A stretch of DNA of 64,000 bases from Comamonadaceae bacterium OTU4NAUVB1 (GTDB lineage: Bacteria; Pseudomonadota; Gammaproteobacteria; Burkholderiales; Burkholderiaceae_C): assembly GCA_024372625.1 (NCBI GenBank), contig CP099604.1:225856-289855 (forward strand), written 5' to 3'. Made by a program: the position numbers and the translations under genes. The notes under the pieces were generated by a model. It saw nothing but the letters and a program-made list of their open reading frames with translations. It did not search any database and was not told where the DNA came from. Shown in pieces: positions 37,841 to 62,711 of this stretch (the first letter of the stretch is position 1; every line of letters begins with the position of its first letter).

Positions 37841-38101
37841 CTAAGCCTTCTTGCATGTTTTCATATAATCATGAAAACATGCAAGCATGAAATCACTCAA
37901 TGTCATTTCTTGTTCTGCGGCAGCGATCTTGATCGCCCTTGCCTCTTCTCGTGGAATGCGGATCTGCAGCGGATGCATAGGTCTCTGCTTGGGCTTGGGA
38001 GCCACTTGTGGTTGGGCTGCTACGCGCGGCGGCGTCACAGCCTTTGGCGTGATTTGTGGCGCGTTCAACGCGTCGGGGGTTAGAGCAAGTGCTTTAGCCA
38101 T
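37841..38101 (-). CDS. Small ribbon-helix-helix (RHH) DNA-binding protein
   Basis: An 86-residue protein. Residues 1-45 are a flexible Pro/Ala/Lys-rich tail. Residues 46-83 read as an RHH fold: the strand LQIRIP, helix REEARAIKIAAAEQEM and helix TLSDFMLACFHDYMKT. This layout (loose basic tail plus C-terminal RHH) is that of plasmid partition/copy-control proteins such as ParG and omega, or of RHH antitoxins; no ParA or toxin is adjacent. AAGGTGA precedes the ATG. The 5' leader is a 20-copy octamer array and the 3' end of the gene lies in a perfect 15-bp inverted repeat built from the same GCATGTTT-type sequence. Autoregulation on these repeats is inferred. Confidence 0.72.
   Translation of the reverse strand: MAKALALTPDALNAPQITPKAVTPPRVAAQPQVAPKPKQRPMHPLQIRIPREEARAIKIAAAEQEMTLSDFMLACFHDYMKTCKKA
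37850..37885. repeat. Perfect 15-bp inverted repeat at the 3' end of the RHH gene
   Basis: Arms CTTGCATGTTTTCAT and ATGAAAACATGCAAG are separated by 6 bp (ATAATC). The arms share GCATGTTT/AAACATGC with the octamer array upstream of the same gene. The repeat encodes the last residues of the RHH protein. Confidence 0.9.
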
Positions 38102-38124
38102 GATGTTTCACCTTAGATTCAGTT

Positions 38125-38284
38125 TTTGCATGTTTGCATGTTTGCATGTTTGCATGTTTGCATGTTTGCATGTTTGCATGTTTGCATGTTTGCATGTTTG
38201 CATGTTTGCATGTTTGCATGTTTGCATGTTTGCATGTTTGCATGTTTGCATGTTTGCATGTTTGCATGTTTGCATGTTTGCATG
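38125..38284. repeat. Array of 20 tandem TTTGCATG octamers
   Basis: Twenty exact 8-bp units without interruption (160 bp), seen as CATGCAAA on the minus strand. It sits between a -10-like TATAAT (38293-38298, minus) and the RHH gene start, so it would be transcribed as a 5' leader or act as an operator/iteron array. All six frames through it are open, which produces meaningless reading frames. Confidence 0.97.
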
Positions 38285-38292
38285 TTTTGCGC

Positions 38293-38298
38293 ATTATA
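38293..38298 (-). promoter_or_regulatory. Candidate -10 box (TATAAT) for the RHH gene
   Basis: A consensus TATAAT on the minus strand, just upstream of the octamer array. Initiation 6-8 bases downstream would start transcription at the edge of the array. No good -35 element is seen 17 bp upstream (CTGAAT), so activation or a weak promoter is possible. An 8-bp octamer-like half site (TTTGCATA) overlaps it. Confidence 0.45.
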
Positions 38299-38474
38299 TG
38301 CAAACATGTAGGAATATTCAGCTGGTTAAGTTGATGTGGCTAGTGACATGACGGCTCAGATTTCTCGTTTTTTTGTCAACGTCGTGAGCCAGACCCAGTG
38401 ATCGAATCGATCGCACAGCTTGGTCTTGACGCCGGGCCGGACCTCCTCGGAAGAAATCACAGCCGACTTCTTAC

Positions 38475-40716: not shown

Positions 40717-41701
40717 TTGCTCCAGTTTGGACAGAATAACGTCACGACTCTCCGGGACTGCACACCTAAGGCCATCGCGCAGTTGCCGGCGCTGTTCCGG
40801 CCCACCCCCGCAGCGGCCAAGCGCACGCTGGAGTTCTTCACCGCCCAGATCCGTAACCCGAACACGCGTAAGGCATATGCGCGCTCGGTCTCTAAGTTCG
40901 GCGCCTGGTGTGAGGCACATGGACTGCACGACCTGGCCGGCATCGAGCCGGTCCATATGGCAGCCTACATCGAGCAAATGCAGCAGCGTCTATCAGCATC
41001 CTCGATCAAGCAGCCTCTGGCCGCATTACACGTGGTGTTCGACTGGCTGGTAGTGGGTCAAGTCATCCCGATGAACCCAGCCAGTTCGGTGAGGAGACCA
41101 CAGCACTCGGTGCGCAAAGGGAAGACGCCCGTGCTTGCCGCTGACGAAGCTCGGGCCATGCTCGATACGATCGACCTCACCACGCCCATCGGCCTGCGCG
41201 ATCGGGCGCTGATAGCCCGATGGTCTACACCTTTGCCCGCGTGGGTGCAGCGCTGCAGATGCGGGTGGAGGACGTCTACACCCAGAGCCGCGCACCTGGG
41301 TGCGGCTGCACGAGAAGGGCGGCAAGGAGCACGAGATGCCCTGCCATCACCACCTGGAGGAGTACCGCCATGCGTACCTGCAGCAGGAGGCATTGCAGGG
41401 CGACAAGAAGGGTTGGCTGTTCCGCTCGGCCAAAGGGCGCTCTGGCGAGCTCTCAGAGCGGCCCATGAGCCAATCTGACGTCTACCGGATGATCGGGCGG
41501 CGAGCCGAGGATGCTGACGTCGCCACGAAGATTGGATGCCACTCCTTCTGGGCCACCGGGATCGCGGAGTACCTGCGCAACGGCGGGCGCCTCGAGGTGG
41601 CTCAGCAGATGGCCAACCATGAGAGTTCGCGCACCACCGGGCTCTACGACCGGCGCAATGATCAGGTCTCGCTCGATGAGGTTGAGCGGATATTGATTTG
41701 A
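40717..41701 (+). pseudogene. Tyrosine recombinase (XerC/phage integrase type), 5'-truncated with two frameshifts
   Basis: Frame 1 (to about 41213) has the SAM-like N-terminal domain (LEFFTAQIRNPNTRKAYARS) and the start of the catalytic domain (PIGLRDRALIA). A second frame holds MVYTFARVGAALQMRVEDVY (41220-41290, with the first catalytic Arg region). A third (41297-41701) holds RLHEKGGKEHEMPCHHHLEE, HSFWATGIAEYL and MANHESSRTTGLYDRRND with the Tyr. Each break is explained by loss of one base. HxxR reads HSFW, so the second Arg is missing too. The initiation codon seems to have been removed by the IS481 element. The recombinase is therefore inactive as read. Confidence 0.8.
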
Positions 41702-42664: not shown

Positions 42665-43261
42665 TCAGGTCTTTTCGCTGCCTCGATCGTTCTCACTCCC
42701 GAGGGTCCATCGGCTCAGACTTGCATCGAGCAACGCTGCCACCTTCTCGGTGTGGCTGTGAACGTATGCGGTGAGCTGGTCCAACTGCTCGGTCTTGACT
42801 GTGCTGGGCTCGCCCTGGTTAAGCCGCTTGGCAATCTGGTTGAGGTTGCGGCCAATGGCTCGAAGCTGACGCGATGACTCCCAGAGCGCTTGGGTCGTCT
42901 CCATCATGAACTGCGGCTGGTGCGTCAGACTGGCTCGCACGCTGTTGGCGACCCAGCGTTGAGGAGAACTGCCCTCAGCTTGTGCCCGGGCAGTCAACGC
43001 CTCGAACTCGGAAGGCGTGAACCGAACCGCCAGCCGTTCCTTTGGGCCGTAGTCAGGCGCGCCATCGTGCTCAACCCAACGGCGAACATCGGGCGGGATG
43101 TCGTCCTTGATGAGGTAGGCCATCAGGGCACGCAAGGCGACCGAGGGTGTCACGTCCTGCTTGGCACAGTGTTGATCCCACTGGGCCTTCAACGGCGCTG
43201 GTACACGCAGTTGATACACGGCGCTCTCCCGGGTTGCACCGATCACAGACTTGCGAGGCAT
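42665..43261 (-). CDS. MobC-like plasmid mobilisation relaxosome protein
   Basis: A 198-residue protein with the MobC block ALWESSRQLRAIGRNLNQIA (about residues 124-145), which in mobilisable plasmids helps open oriT for the relaxase. The N-terminal half has RHH-like segments (VYQLRVPAPLKAQW and RLAVRFTPSEFEALTARAQA). AAAGG lies before the ATG. No relaxase gene is found on either side, so the module is incomplete in this window. The non-coding region upstream carries palindromes and iterons, as expected near an oriT/oriV. Confidence 0.8.
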   Translation of the reverse strand: MPRKSVIGATRESAVYQLRVPAPLKAQWDQHCAKQDVTPSVALRALMAYLIKDDIPPDVRRWVEHDGAPDYGPKERLAVRFTPSEFEALTARAQAEGSSPQRWVANSVRASLTHQPQFMMETTQALWESSRQLRAIGRNLNQIAKRLNQGEPSTVKTEQLDQLTAYVHSHTEKVAALLDASLSRWTLGSENDRGSEKT

Positions 43262-43354
43262 AGTGACCTTTGGGTCATGGAAAGCTCAAACACCGACGTA
43301 GTGTGGTACGAAATCCCGGCAAAAGCCTATCCTGCACTAGTCCATCACCCTCTC

Positions 43355-43380
43355 AAAGTCTTGGTCATGACCAAGACTTT
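43355..43380. repeat. 26-bp perfect palindrome A
   Basis: Arms AAAGTCTTGGTCA / TGACCAAGACTTT, no spacer. The core GTCATGAC is shared with copies C, D and E. Confidence 0.93.
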
Positions 43381-43434
43381 TGTCCTTCTCCACTTCCGCT
43401 AGCAATCATGCACGCCGCCCCCTGTCTGCCCTGT

Positions 43435-43450
43435 CTGCCCTGTCGGGCAG
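43435..43450. repeat. Hairpin CTGCCC-TGTC-GGGCAG, copy 1
   Basis: A 6-bp perfect stem with TGTC loop, preceded by two direct CTGTCTGCC repeats. A second copy (43734-43749) occupies the same place between palindromes C and D. Confidence 0.85.
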
Positions 43451-43488
43451 GGTGGAAAAAGGCGGCTGCGCCGCCAGGGCGATGTCGA

Positions 43489-43514
43489 AAACGTTTCGTC
43501 GTGACAAAGCTTTT
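43489..43514. repeat. Degenerate palindrome B
   Basis: Centred on GTCGTGAC, with nine of thirteen base pairs kept in the 26-bp window. By spacing it corresponds to copy D of the second module. Confidence 0.6.
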
Positions 43515-43664
43515 GCCCGTCTTGGTCGTCCAAGCCAAGACCGTCGTTGCCCTGTTCGTATCTCATCGGACAGAGCGGTAAGGAGCTGCTGTACCGTCAG
43601 GAGATGGTCGAAGAGTGCTTGTCAGGACTGTGCTTGGCCTCATCCAGCCATCGGATCCATCCGA

Positions 43665-43690
43665 GATTCCTTAGTCATGACTAAGGAATC
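43665..43690. repeat. 26-bp perfect palindrome C
   Basis: Arms GATTCCTTAGTCA / TGACTAAGGAATC. Outer arm sequence differs from copy A, yet pairing is complete. Confidence 0.93.
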
Positions 43691-43733
43691 GACCCTGTAC
43701 AACGACTTGGACAACGACTCACGCGACCTCTTT

Positions 43734-43749
43734 CTGCCCTGTCGGGCAA
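43734..43749. repeat. Hairpin CTGCCC-TGTC-GGGCA, copy 2
   Basis: Same sequence as 43435-43450 except for the last base. It lies midway between palindromes C and D. Confidence 0.8.
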
Positions 43750-43786
43750 GACAAAACAAAGCGGCCGTGACGCGATGGAAGATCGA

Positions 43787-43812
43787 AAAGTGTTTGTCAT
43801 GACGAACACTTT
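43787..43812. repeat. 26-bp palindrome D, one mismatch
   Basis: Arms AAAGTGTTTGTCA / TGACGAACACTTT, with a single T/G mismatch next to the GTCATGAC core. Confidence 0.9.
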
Positions 43813-43900
43813 GCCGAACCTGTGCGTTTCGGCTGGACCCCGATGAAATCCAACTTGGGGGAAAACGTCCCACGTGTACGAGTCCATCCCTTCCATGAAT

Positions 43901-43918
43901 CGTTGGTCATGACCAACG
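43901..43918. repeat. 18-bp perfect palindrome E
   Basis: CGTTGGTCA / TGACCAACG, the shorter fifth member sharing the GTCATGAC core. Confidence 0.88.
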
Positions 43919-44252
43919 CAACGACGACAGCCCATAGACCCTCGCTGCCATCTGGCGTACTGACCAGGACTGCGTAAATCCAAGTCCAAGATCTAGTGTT
44001 CTGGTTGCTCGAAATCATCAGAGTCGGCGCTGAGATTGTCTTGAAAACGGAAAAAGTCGTTGTAAATCAACGAACTCGATTTTCTTGAGGTTTCTTGTCT
44101 TGGCAGCTTGGCCAAGCCAGGTTCAAGCCTTGATCTCTCAGGCACTGGCCCGGCGCTCGGGCCGCCTCGTCTGCGTTGAAATCTCCCCGATCCTGTGGGC
44201 TGCCTTACTGGACGTCACCCGTGAGCGCCGCAGGTGCGAATAAGGGCTGCCA

Positions 44253-44293
44253 GCGAAGTGCAAGGACCGGCTTCGCCGGTGCTAGCACTTCGC
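44253..44293. other. Nested hairpin
   Basis: Outer 9-bp stem GCGAAGTGC / GCACTTCGC encloses an inner stem ACCGGC / GCCGGT. It lies just before the 11-bp repeats. It could be a nic-site hairpin, a small RNA terminator or an origin structure. Confidence 0.6.
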
Positions 44294-44325
44294 CTATCCT
44301 GCCCCGTTGCACGCGTCCATCGTCA

Positions 44326-44434
44326 GACGATCGAAAGCCGATCGAAAGCCGATCGAAGGCCGATTTTTCTGCATTGAAACTCGATCGAAGCCCGACTGGA
44401 TGCCGATCGAGACCCCAGGGGAAGCCGATCAGCA
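44326..44434. repeat. 11-bp repeats, GCCGATCGAAA type
   Basis: Units at 44326, 44337 and 44348 are adjacent, with a decayed one at 44359 (GCCGATTTTTC). Further copies near 44380, 44402 and 44424 keep roughly 11-bp phasing. One DNA helical turn per unit is typical of initiator or partition protein sites. Confidence 0.75.
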
Positions 44435-44454
44435 TCCGATTTCGGGAGAAACCT

Positions 44455-44586
44455 CACTCAACACCCACTCAGCACCCACTCAGCACCCACTCGACACCCA
44501 TTCAACACTCACTCAGCACCCACTCGACACCCACTCGACACCCATTCAACACTCACTCAGCATCCACTCGACACCCACTCAGCACC
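44455..44586. repeat. Twelve tandem 11-bp repeats, CACTC(A/G)(A/G)CACC type
   Basis: Twelve head-to-tail units with limited variation (CACTCAACACC, CACTCAGCACC, CACTCGACACC, CATTCAACACT). The variants recur in the same order, showing higher-order duplication. The strand is C-rich and nearly T-poor. Confidence 0.93.
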
Positions 44587-44843
44587 GGTCACGCTGCAGC
44601 CCAAATGCAGCATCGCAACGGAGCAGGATATGCGCTGTACCTGTACGAGCAAGCCCGCCCAGTCCCAGCGCCCTGCCCTTGCTTGCACCTGCGGCGCTCA
44701 CGGGTGCTGTCATGCAAGGCATGACCATGGTCATCTCCCTGCCGGTCGCCTGTTTCTCGCATGGCAGGTCCTATGGCCATTCTTGAAGCAATGCAGACTT
44801 GCCTGTCGACTAACCCACTGCACCAGTTCCGTCGATTAGTAGC

Positions 44844-61691: not shown

Positions 61692-62711
61692 TCAGCGATT
61701 GAGTTCGTAGGGAAAACTACGCCCTGCGCGCCGAAAGGCTGCCAACACCAGGGCGCGAAGTTGCCTGCGCGCCATGGCTTTGCCAACGGTATAGGCTGTC
61801 CAAGCAGGATAGATCGCATGGATCAGCTGCTCGCGAAAATCGCTGCGTTGACTCTGGAGTTGTCGGAACTGTTGCTCCAGCGTGTGACCGAGTGAAATGG
61901 GTCCAAAATTTGCGTTGAATGTCAGGCGCGCTAGCGCGCCACGTTGTTGCCATTCGTCCTCGTGCGAACGAACGATCGCATCGAGTTGGGCAAGCTGGCT
62001 TTCTTTGACAAACAAACAAAAGCTCAAGTCGATGCCTTTGGGTGGAAGCCAGCCGTCTGCCATCACCACCGGTGCGACGCCCAGTTCCATGGCTTCGAAC
62101 ATGCGAATGCTCGACGGGCTGGCGCCTCGTGGACACAAGGCAAACTTTGAGGCTCTCATCGTTTCGATGTAGACGCGTTGTTGAGCGCTCTTGTCGACCT
62201 TGCCGCCCGCGTCGTGTGACCAATGCTGATAGAAGTCGGTCGGCGCGACCTTGACGTCCGCCTGATCAGTTGATTTGTAGTGCCGGAAAATACGTTTGCG
62301 CAGCATCGAGGTGCTGCCCCCGATGAAGCTATAGAGAAAATCTTTCTGCATCGGCTCATCGATCAATCTGTCGATCCACATGTTGCGTTTGCCTTGGGCG
62401 GCAAAGAGGGAGGTGTAGGGACTGCAGGTCAGCGCCCGATGCCGAGACAGGAATGTGGTGTGGTTGGATGCATAGAGTGCCGGAATGTAGAAGTCGGTGA
62501 CATCTGAATCTGAAATCGCTACGCATTTCTTCGGAAATCTCTTGTAAGCCTCGATCTTTCTAATCGATCTGGGGGTGCCATCACTCAAAATAATGATGTC
62601 TGCTTGTGCAGGATCGGCTGTCAAAATGACGTTTTCGAACTGCTGGAGAATGTCAGTCAACTCACGATAGTGATCTTGGTGGGAACAGCCAGCAACATGC
62701 AGAAAAATCAT
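61692..62711 (-). CDS. Exostosin-family (GT47-like) glycosyltransferase
   Basis: A 339-residue glycosyltransferase. The C-terminal exostosin signature is SKFALCPRGASPSSIRMFEA followed by MELGVAPVVMADGWLPPKG. The N-terminal half has IIILSDGTPRSIRKIEAYKR and FLYSFIGGSTSMLRKRIF. ATG 62711 is chosen because AAGG lies five bases upstream; an earlier in-frame ATG at 62768 lacks a ribosome site. Usually such genes lie in polysaccharide clusters, but here it stands alone at the end of the island, so it is possibly a moved single gene. Confidence 0.83.
   Translation of the reverse strand: MIFLHVAGCSHQDHYRELTDILQQFENVILTADPAQADIIILSDGTPRSIRKIEAYKRFPKKCVAISDSDVTDFYIPALYASNHTTFLSRHRALTCSPYTSLFAAQGKRNMWIDRLIDEPMQKDFLYSFIGGSTSMLRKRIFRHYKSTDQADVKVAPTDFYQHWSHDAGGKVDKSAQQRVYIETMRASKFALCPRGASPSSIRMFEAMELGVAPVVMADGWLPPKGIDLSFCLFVKESQLAQLDAIVRSHEDEWQQRGALARLTFNANFGPISLGHTLEQQFRQLQSQRSDFREQLIHAIYPAWTAYTVGKAMARRQLRALVLAAFRRAGRSFPYELNR

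Follow-up and report, generated by a model that had tools for sequence, protein, structure and literature searches.

The five palindromes located within positions 43355–43922 of the window (the whole 64,000-nucleotide stretch of DNA that was analyzed) are probably binding boxes of a KorB/ParB-type protein of the PromA plasmid family, with the 16-bp palindrome NTTNGTCATGACNAAN as the candidate recognition unit, and they form an array on what would be the leading side of a PromA-type oriT. The binding of KorB and the polarity of transfer are both deduced from sequence, the latter with the nic position and transfer direction of RP4. The features of this locus are summarized in Table 1.

Table 1. 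Features of the array and of its surroundings in the window
Feature	Position	Strand	Remarks
mobC, intact gene of a 198-aa relaxosome accessory protein (NikA-like/MobC domains)	42665..43261	-	70–71% identical to the MobC of the closest PromA-type plasmids
PromA-type oriT region, nic-like TATCCTGC at 43328–43335	43296..43335	+	DNA match and nic motif
Box A	43355..43380	.	perfect 26-bp palindrome; inner 14-mer starts 25 bp past the nic octamer
Hairpin CTGCCC-TGTC-GGGCAG, first module	43435..43450	.	between A and B
Box B	43489..43514	.	degenerate; 4 mismatched pairs; core GTCGTGAC
Box C	43665..43690	.	perfect 26-bp palindrome
Hairpin CTGCCC-TGTC-GGGCA, second module	43734..43748	.	between C and D
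Box D	43787..43812	.	26-bp palindrome with one mismatched pair
Box E	43901..43918	.	palindrome perfect over 18 bp
IncP (RP4)-type oriT, nic-like TATCCTGC at 44295–44302	44201..44304	+	plasmid matches; Rfam traJ-II on the opposite strand
11-bp direct repeats, CGATCGAAAGC type	44328..44442	.	after the first IncP-type oriT
11-bp direct repeats, CACTCAGCACC type	44455..44597	.	facing the second IncP-type oriT
Second IncP-type oriT, degenerate, inverted, nic-like site at 44623–44630	44615..44721	-	similarity only

The core GTCATGAC is intact in four of the palindromes (A, C, D and E), and the degree of symmetry that the sequence-only reading had assigned to each of the five (Table 1) was confirmed on recount; in the 64-kb window, no 26-mer apart from A, C and D has fewer than two mismatched pairs. 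The core by itself is mildly enriched there (4 observed versus 1.14 expected, a number reached in 3 of 100 shuffles), while the pattern TTNGTCATGACNAA is present in 4 copies in the 4.66-Mb genome (98.78% complete), all of them inside the array, and the reversed control pattern gives no match. As is typical of KorB/ParB sites, a palindrome with a conserved core is thus present in several copies (four exact and one degenerate). The centre-to-centre distances are 134 bp (A–B), 122 bp (C–D) and 110 bp (D–E); the second of these agrees with the earlier reading, and the first had been given as 130 bp. The hairpin that had been noticed inside both pairs, A–B and C–D, is indeed present in both modules. 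These align with each other over 87 bp, from the hairpin to B or D (score of 33 versus a maximum of 15.5 in 200 shuffles), and the proposed duplication of a module of about 305 bp is shown for this part only; the best local alignment stops short of A and C. A scan of the window revealed no TATCCTGC beside boxes B–E, and one further, lone TATCCTGC at 61804, far from any box.

The palindromes could be linked to a known type of transfer region by the DNA upstream of mobC, where positions 43296–43375 match two PromA-type plasmids. The three plasmids of this type inspected at that place each have a nic-like CCTATCCTGCA with a single GTCATGAC palindrome after it, which indicates that palindrome A is the counterpart of a plasmid feature. 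The window has the same arrangement, with the nic-like CCTATCCTGCA upstream of mobC and a box approx. 25 bp away, so that the suggestion of an oriT element, made in the sequence-only reading for the whole family of palindromes, is supported for palindrome A; nothing in these analyses pointed to the alternative of an oriV. The distance between nic and box was determined for 36 distinct units, including that of the window: it is 25 bp in 17, 26 bp in 7, 24 bp in 2 and 34 bp in 5 of them, and 22, 27, 111, 185 and 223 bp in one each, with long gaps being under-counted because part of the loci were retrieved with a gap limit of 18–40. The 34-bp gap (5/36) exceeds the prevailing one of 25–26 bp (24/36) by about one helical turn.

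The mobC gene itself is close to its plasmid counterparts. The mobC–oriT stretch is found at 72% identity on plasmid-sized contigs of two genomes of the same genus, and the comparison of mobC with four plasmid copies gave a dN of 0.20–0.31 and a dS ranging from 1.6 to saturated, values which mostly reflect plasmid history. The window MobC is 71% identical to those of the plasmids, versus 33–37% for four MobCs compared from the chromosomal islands described below; the MobCs of two other islands (L123 and L124) are closer to the plasmid/window kind than these four. When the window MobC was used alone as a query of genome contigs, 25 stretches were matched, none of which proved to be a relative by tblastn. 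A relaxase gene was found neither in the window nor in the genome to which it belongs, the genome search being one that, run without a positive control, shows little.

An indication of the identity of the binding protein comes from the plasmids, since the palindrome is embedded in the korB/parB gene of all 15 PromA-type plasmids examined (nine read whole or nearly so and three read locally, which together were aligned, plus three more that were not aligned); as PromA-type plasmids are related, these do not represent 15 independent cases. In all 12 aligned genes the box occupies the same alignment column and reading frame (pMRAD02 has two boxes), and in the three further plasmids it lies within korB in the same frame. 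It is situated in the hypervariable linker between the DNA-binding part of KorB and the C-terminal domain. Codon usage was compared in 13 of the 15 genes: the His codon of the box is CAT and the Phe codon, where present, is TTT, and outside the box the same genes prefer CAC (26/41) and TTC (60/76). The CAT, TTT and AAA codons of the box hence run counter to the codon habit of these genes; GAC does not, and the HisAsp encoded by the box could partly be kept at the protein level. A box is also located 24–27 bp from nic in 13/15 plasmids. The exceptions are the Stenotrophomonas plasmid L129, whose oriT box is 223 bp from nic, and pMRAD02, which has mobC and nic, lacks the nic-adjacent box and carries both of its boxes in korB. 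Four of the nine plasmids read whole or nearly so have a further copy, placed in traN (pSB102 and pIPO2T) or in its positional counterpart (pK1219-2 and pTer331). The KorB of pSB102 contains KorB and KorB_C domains, and KorB structures rank highest among its PDB matches. In PMC6232296, korB/parB is listed among 24 PromA core genes and a putative oriT is marked, and parS is mentioned nowhere in the main text of that article.

The KorB operators (OB) of IncP-1 plasmids and the parS sites of ParB proteins are short palindromes, several per plasmid, which are read by a dimer of the KorB/ParB fold, and KorB of RP4 binds such dispersed palindromes. KorB is the simplest candidate for the binding of the boxes described here, because its own gene carries the site and because this member of the family from IncP-1 recognizes dispersed palindromes. 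The likeness therefore lies in the multiple short palindromes and in the protein family, to which pSB102 KorB belongs. In contrast, the core in the window is GTCATGAC and not TTTAGCSGCTAAA, the motif of IncP-1 KorB boxes; the IncP plasmid pAOVO02 has 11 scattered TTTAGCSGCTAAA sites and no GTCATGAC. A further difference is that PromA plasmids have one copy within korB and one by nic, whereas the window contains an array without korB. Compared with the oriT of PromA plasmids (pSB102, pIPO2, pTer331 and pSN1104-11), the window shares the nic-like site, mobC and a palindrome 24–27 bp away, and differs in having five boxes instead of one, and no relaxase gene that we could find.

No PromA-type KorB or KorB_C domain was found in the genome of the window, and hence no cognate KorB in the same replicon as the array. 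Nor was a PromA-type KorB found in ten host genomes of array loci (the hosts of eight nic–box islands and of two other arrays); only partial ParB-like matches of 28–37% identity were observed. Binding would consequently have to occur in trans, and the array, in a genome where neither a PromA-type KorB nor a relaxase was found, looks like an orphan. A scan of 300 genomes of the order for KorB_C gave one genome above the cut-off (G109, with two matches) and one below it, which is too few for an assessment of other KorB lineages. Given the box in korB of 15/15 plasmids, we prefer, among the interpretations offered in the sequence-only reading, that of serial operators bound by a dimeric regulator, with KorB of a helper plasmid as the likely protein. 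The small protein encoded at 37841–38101, an RHH candidate, gave no Pfam hit.

The sequence-only reading had also proposed that the arms of the palindromes differ in sequence and remain self-complementary, i.e. that symmetry rather than sequence is conserved, and that this could be verified by a statistical analysis of covariation. We therefore compared 25 distinct plasmid sites and 31 island sites (56 relatives) with the five sites of the window. The GTCATGAC core and the TT/AA positions are part of the definition of a site in this set, and sites missing TT/AA around the core (e.g. L012 26627 and L017 16055) were left out; duplicates were merged, L081 was omitted (L127 is the same locus), L066, L078 and L080 were represented by the longer L099, L100 and L101, and the plasmids L129–L131, obtained later, lie outside the set. 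The shuffles ignore the relatedness of the sites. In the relatives, 50 of 56 sites are paired at position 5, where the shuffles give 37.4, and 47 of 56 at position 8, where they give 23.5. The corresponding values for positions 9–13 are 20, 21, 18, 17 and 18 of 56, versus 18.0, 18.5, 23.1, 21.7 and 16.5 expected. When positions 8–13 are pooled, 141 of 336 pairs are complementary (121.2 expected; reached in 146 of 5000 shuffles), and position 8 accounts for the excess. In the window, the same positions are complementary in 25 of 30 pairs (14.8 expected; reached in 40 of 5000 shuffles, for five sites only).

Since pairing exceeds the shuffles at positions 5 and 8 and not at 9–13, the unit is the 16-bp palindrome NTTNGTCATGACNAAN, and the full 26-bp symmetry appears special to the window. 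The proposed conservation of symmetry thus holds within the window and, among the relatives, as far as position 8; covariation across 26 bp as a general feature was rejected. The arms of the relatives have changed at positions 9–13 without compensation, which speaks against cruciform formation as a general property of these sites. Isolated copies with 12 of 13 pairs complementary do occur elsewhere (pSB102 korB, L100, L120 and L127). Positions 5 and 8 vary within one element and yet mostly stay paired, a behaviour not expected under a simple half-site model; a lineage-specific preference, concerted correction of the palindrome or a role as a hairpin may account for it. In L123, two boxes whose centres are 20 bp apart (9550 and 9570) differ at position 5 (C versus G) and have one nic site beside them.

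Several other explanations of the boxes were considered. They might be relaxosome sites of MobC or of the relaxase, that is, a part of oriT which was multiplied at this locus. This is unlikely, even though the nic gap is 25–26 bp in 24/36 units, mobC adjoins the array in the window and is present in 7 of 16 distinct island loci, and genome G413 has a nic-adjacent palindrome of other sequence beside another mobC. Such a function leaves the korB-internal copy in 15/15 plasmids and the copy in traN or its positional counterpart in 4/9 plasmids unaccounted for, and boxes B–E of the window have no neighbouring TATCCTGC. Moreover, pMRAD02 has nic and mobC and no nic-adjacent box, which dissociates the box from MobC; together with the korB-internal copies, this plasmid disfavours MobC as the sole binder, a role that the sequence-only reading had put forward for verification and that now seems less probable. 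Islands L099 and L120 have three boxes each and no mobC detected in 19.9 kb. The G413 palindrome mentioned above (L054, 4484–4525) is a perfect one with another core, CGCTAGCG, which is unique in its genome, and it lies at a MobC–relaxase locus; no plasmid carrying this region was matched. Its presence in an unrelated oriT island means that nic-adjacent palindromes may have another role. A still less probable view is that what matters is symmetry and not sequence, with the palindromes acting as hairpins in DNA or ssDNA, either as a cruciform or in the leading region of the strand that folds while it is being transferred. The palindromes are indeed located 3′ of nic on the strand inferred to be transferred, those of the window keep a 26-bp symmetry with differing arms, and positions 5 and 8 covary in the relatives (50 and 47 of 56 paired versus 37.4 and 23.5 expected). 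Against this stand the lack of excess pairing at positions 9–13 in the 56 relatives' sites and the copies inside coding genes far from nic; the apparent sequence conservation of the core weighs little, because the core and TT/AA were selection criteria.

That the boxes are operators of a host chromosomal regulator is hardly credible: they persist on chromosomes in which no plasmid KorB was detected, but the motif is found nowhere else in this genome and accompanies PromA-type mobility genes in several bacterial genera. There is a fair-sized minority chance that a PromA-type element once integrated here and has decayed into a relic without present function, whose sites were once KorB boxes, and this is compatible with the sites being of the KorB type. 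The neighbouring tyrosine recombinase gene (40717–41701) is split over two frames, box B is degenerate, and relaxase, KorB, VirB5 and VirB6 were not found in the window. On the other hand, mobC is intact, with the low dN relative to dS given above (mostly plasmid history), and three boxes have 0–1 mismatched pairs over 26 bp.

If the boxes are indeed recognized by KorB, they would serve this protein in a plasmid as operators and as a centromere (parS), and the nic-proximal box would couple KorB to the relaxosome or to the mobC promoter. In the chromosomal element, reduced here to mobC, oriT and the array, and in the islands, they would be occupied only after the arrival of a PromA plasmid. The KorB of such a plasmid, whether incoming or already resident, would then load there in the same way as at the boxes in its own korB and oriT, while the helper relaxase would nick at the copied nic site; the element would thereby be read as part of the helper plasmid (in regulation, partition or oriT loading) while being mobilised in trans. 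The loading could result in repression of mobC, in partition, in attraction of the relaxosome or in sensing of the helper. Recognition by KorB would provide a recognition sequence for this protein in a broad-host-range plasmid family, and it points to a physical link between a partition protein and a transfer origin.

The combination of nic, 25 bp and a box is a DNA signature which retrieves chromosomal islands that are probably mobilised by PromA plasmids. Two boxes 95–125 bp apart were found in 21 stretches of genome contigs, 11 of which have a nic-like octamer within approx. 125 bp of a box. Three of the latter belong to PromA-type contigs that include part of korB; the other eight, from Pseudomonas, Alcaligenes, Bordetella, Xanthomonas sp. 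Leaf148, P. viridiflava and Pseudoxanthomonas, lie on complete chromosomes or on contigs of 264 kb–1.9 Mb, with korB absent from the stretch read. The remaining 10 loci and three viral ones, with at least two GTCATGAC sites and no nic-like octamer near a box, were excluded from the relatives, and some of them may be due to chance. Among the excluded loci, a Methylobacter contig (L076, 6876–6987) and two viral contigs (L086, 3108–3362, and L087, 6714–6825) have arrays of the TTTGGTCATGACCAAA type and similar ones; they gave no hit to the PromA proteins tried and share a protein of 298–431 aa encoded beside the array, which might act in regulation or partition and use the same core. Within the Burkholderiales, where the sequence-only reading had suggested a search for such palindromes, the nic–box pattern was found in 2 of 399 genomes (that of the window, and G109, on a plasmid-sized contig). 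For the family to which Pseudomonas sp. T1-3-2 belongs, the count was 11 of 398 genomes, including three known beforehand, and the reversed control gave zero in both sets.

Gene content was analyzed in 16 distinct island loci (17 when an overlapping one is counted separately). Several of them are cut by contig ends or are 6–8 kb long, so that the genes present may be more numerous than counted and a missing gene means little in these cases; L099, L100, L101, L119 and L123 are 19.9-kb stretches of contigs of 1.9–7.6 Mb. VirB5 was identified in 11 loci, VirB6 in 10 (in L126 at 34% identity), an integrase in 10, MobC in 7 and KorB in none. Queries with relaxase, VirB4, VirD4, VirB10, VirB11, IncC, KorB and RepA retrieved from the islands only two short relaxase-like pieces, located directly after mobC in L101 (11408–11655), which suggests an origin of the islands from plasmids that had lost the relaxase. 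When ten genes from L068, L099, L100 and L101 were analyzed with PADLOC, seven matched defence systems (including IetA/IetS, PD-T7-1, PDC-S21 and PDC-S06) and three did not; judging from their nearness, the defence genes appear to be island cargo.

SGI1 and other mobilizable islands mimic the oriT of their helper and carry replacement subunits of its transfer apparatus. The nic–box islands are apparently SGI1-like satellites of PromA plasmids: related islands (such as L099, L100 and L119) have an integrase, an oriT mimic and VirB5-Eex-VirB6, with the other transfer genes searched for not found. They differ in that the helper would be a PromA plasmid and the boxes are of the helper KorB type; at the window locus, VirB5, Eex and VirB6 were not found. 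We tentatively propose that chromosomal islands, some of which have phage-defence genes in their neighbourhood, may form a family of satellites that parasitise PromA plasmids by means of a copied nic site, replacements of VirB5-Eex-VirB6 and arrays of helper-KorB boxes by oriT, through which the helper protein would recognise, switch on or carry the island; the version in the window, with two IncP-type oriTs in addition, might be movable by two unrelated helper families. If satellites do read the ParB-type protein of their helper, hitchhiking elements would have a new means of sensing the vehicle that carries them.

The window shares with these islands nic, several boxes and mobC, as well as the absence of a detected KorB and relaxase. 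Concerning the other island-type features, the recombinase is split, and its first part shares 32% identity over 164 residues with a recombinase next to the L081 array. In our reading, the window locus is the oriT cassette, perhaps a worn-down one, of a mobilizable element of the PromA type to which IncP-type oriTs were added. On the left side of this locus, the ORF at 37887–38351 reads as tandem CLHVCMFA repeats.

The two IncP-type oriTs lie to the right of the array. The first one has an RP4-like inverted repeat, a nic region and a traJ-II match above the Rfam gathering score, while the second is degenerate and was recognized by similarity only. Positions 44218–44304 match eight plasmid records, and in pAOVO02 (typed as IncP; the one record read) the match falls between traJ and traK. 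The oriTs are inverted with respect to each other and flank two distinct arrays of 11-bp repeats (44201–44721 in all), which are perhaps sites of cognate accessory proteins. In the case of the same-genus genome G041, a 5.8-Mb contig contains three nic-like octamers within approx. 1.05 kb (L056, 8641–9688), and the IncP-type oriT can be aligned with two of them; this is another chromosomal multi-oriT locus in the genus of the window.
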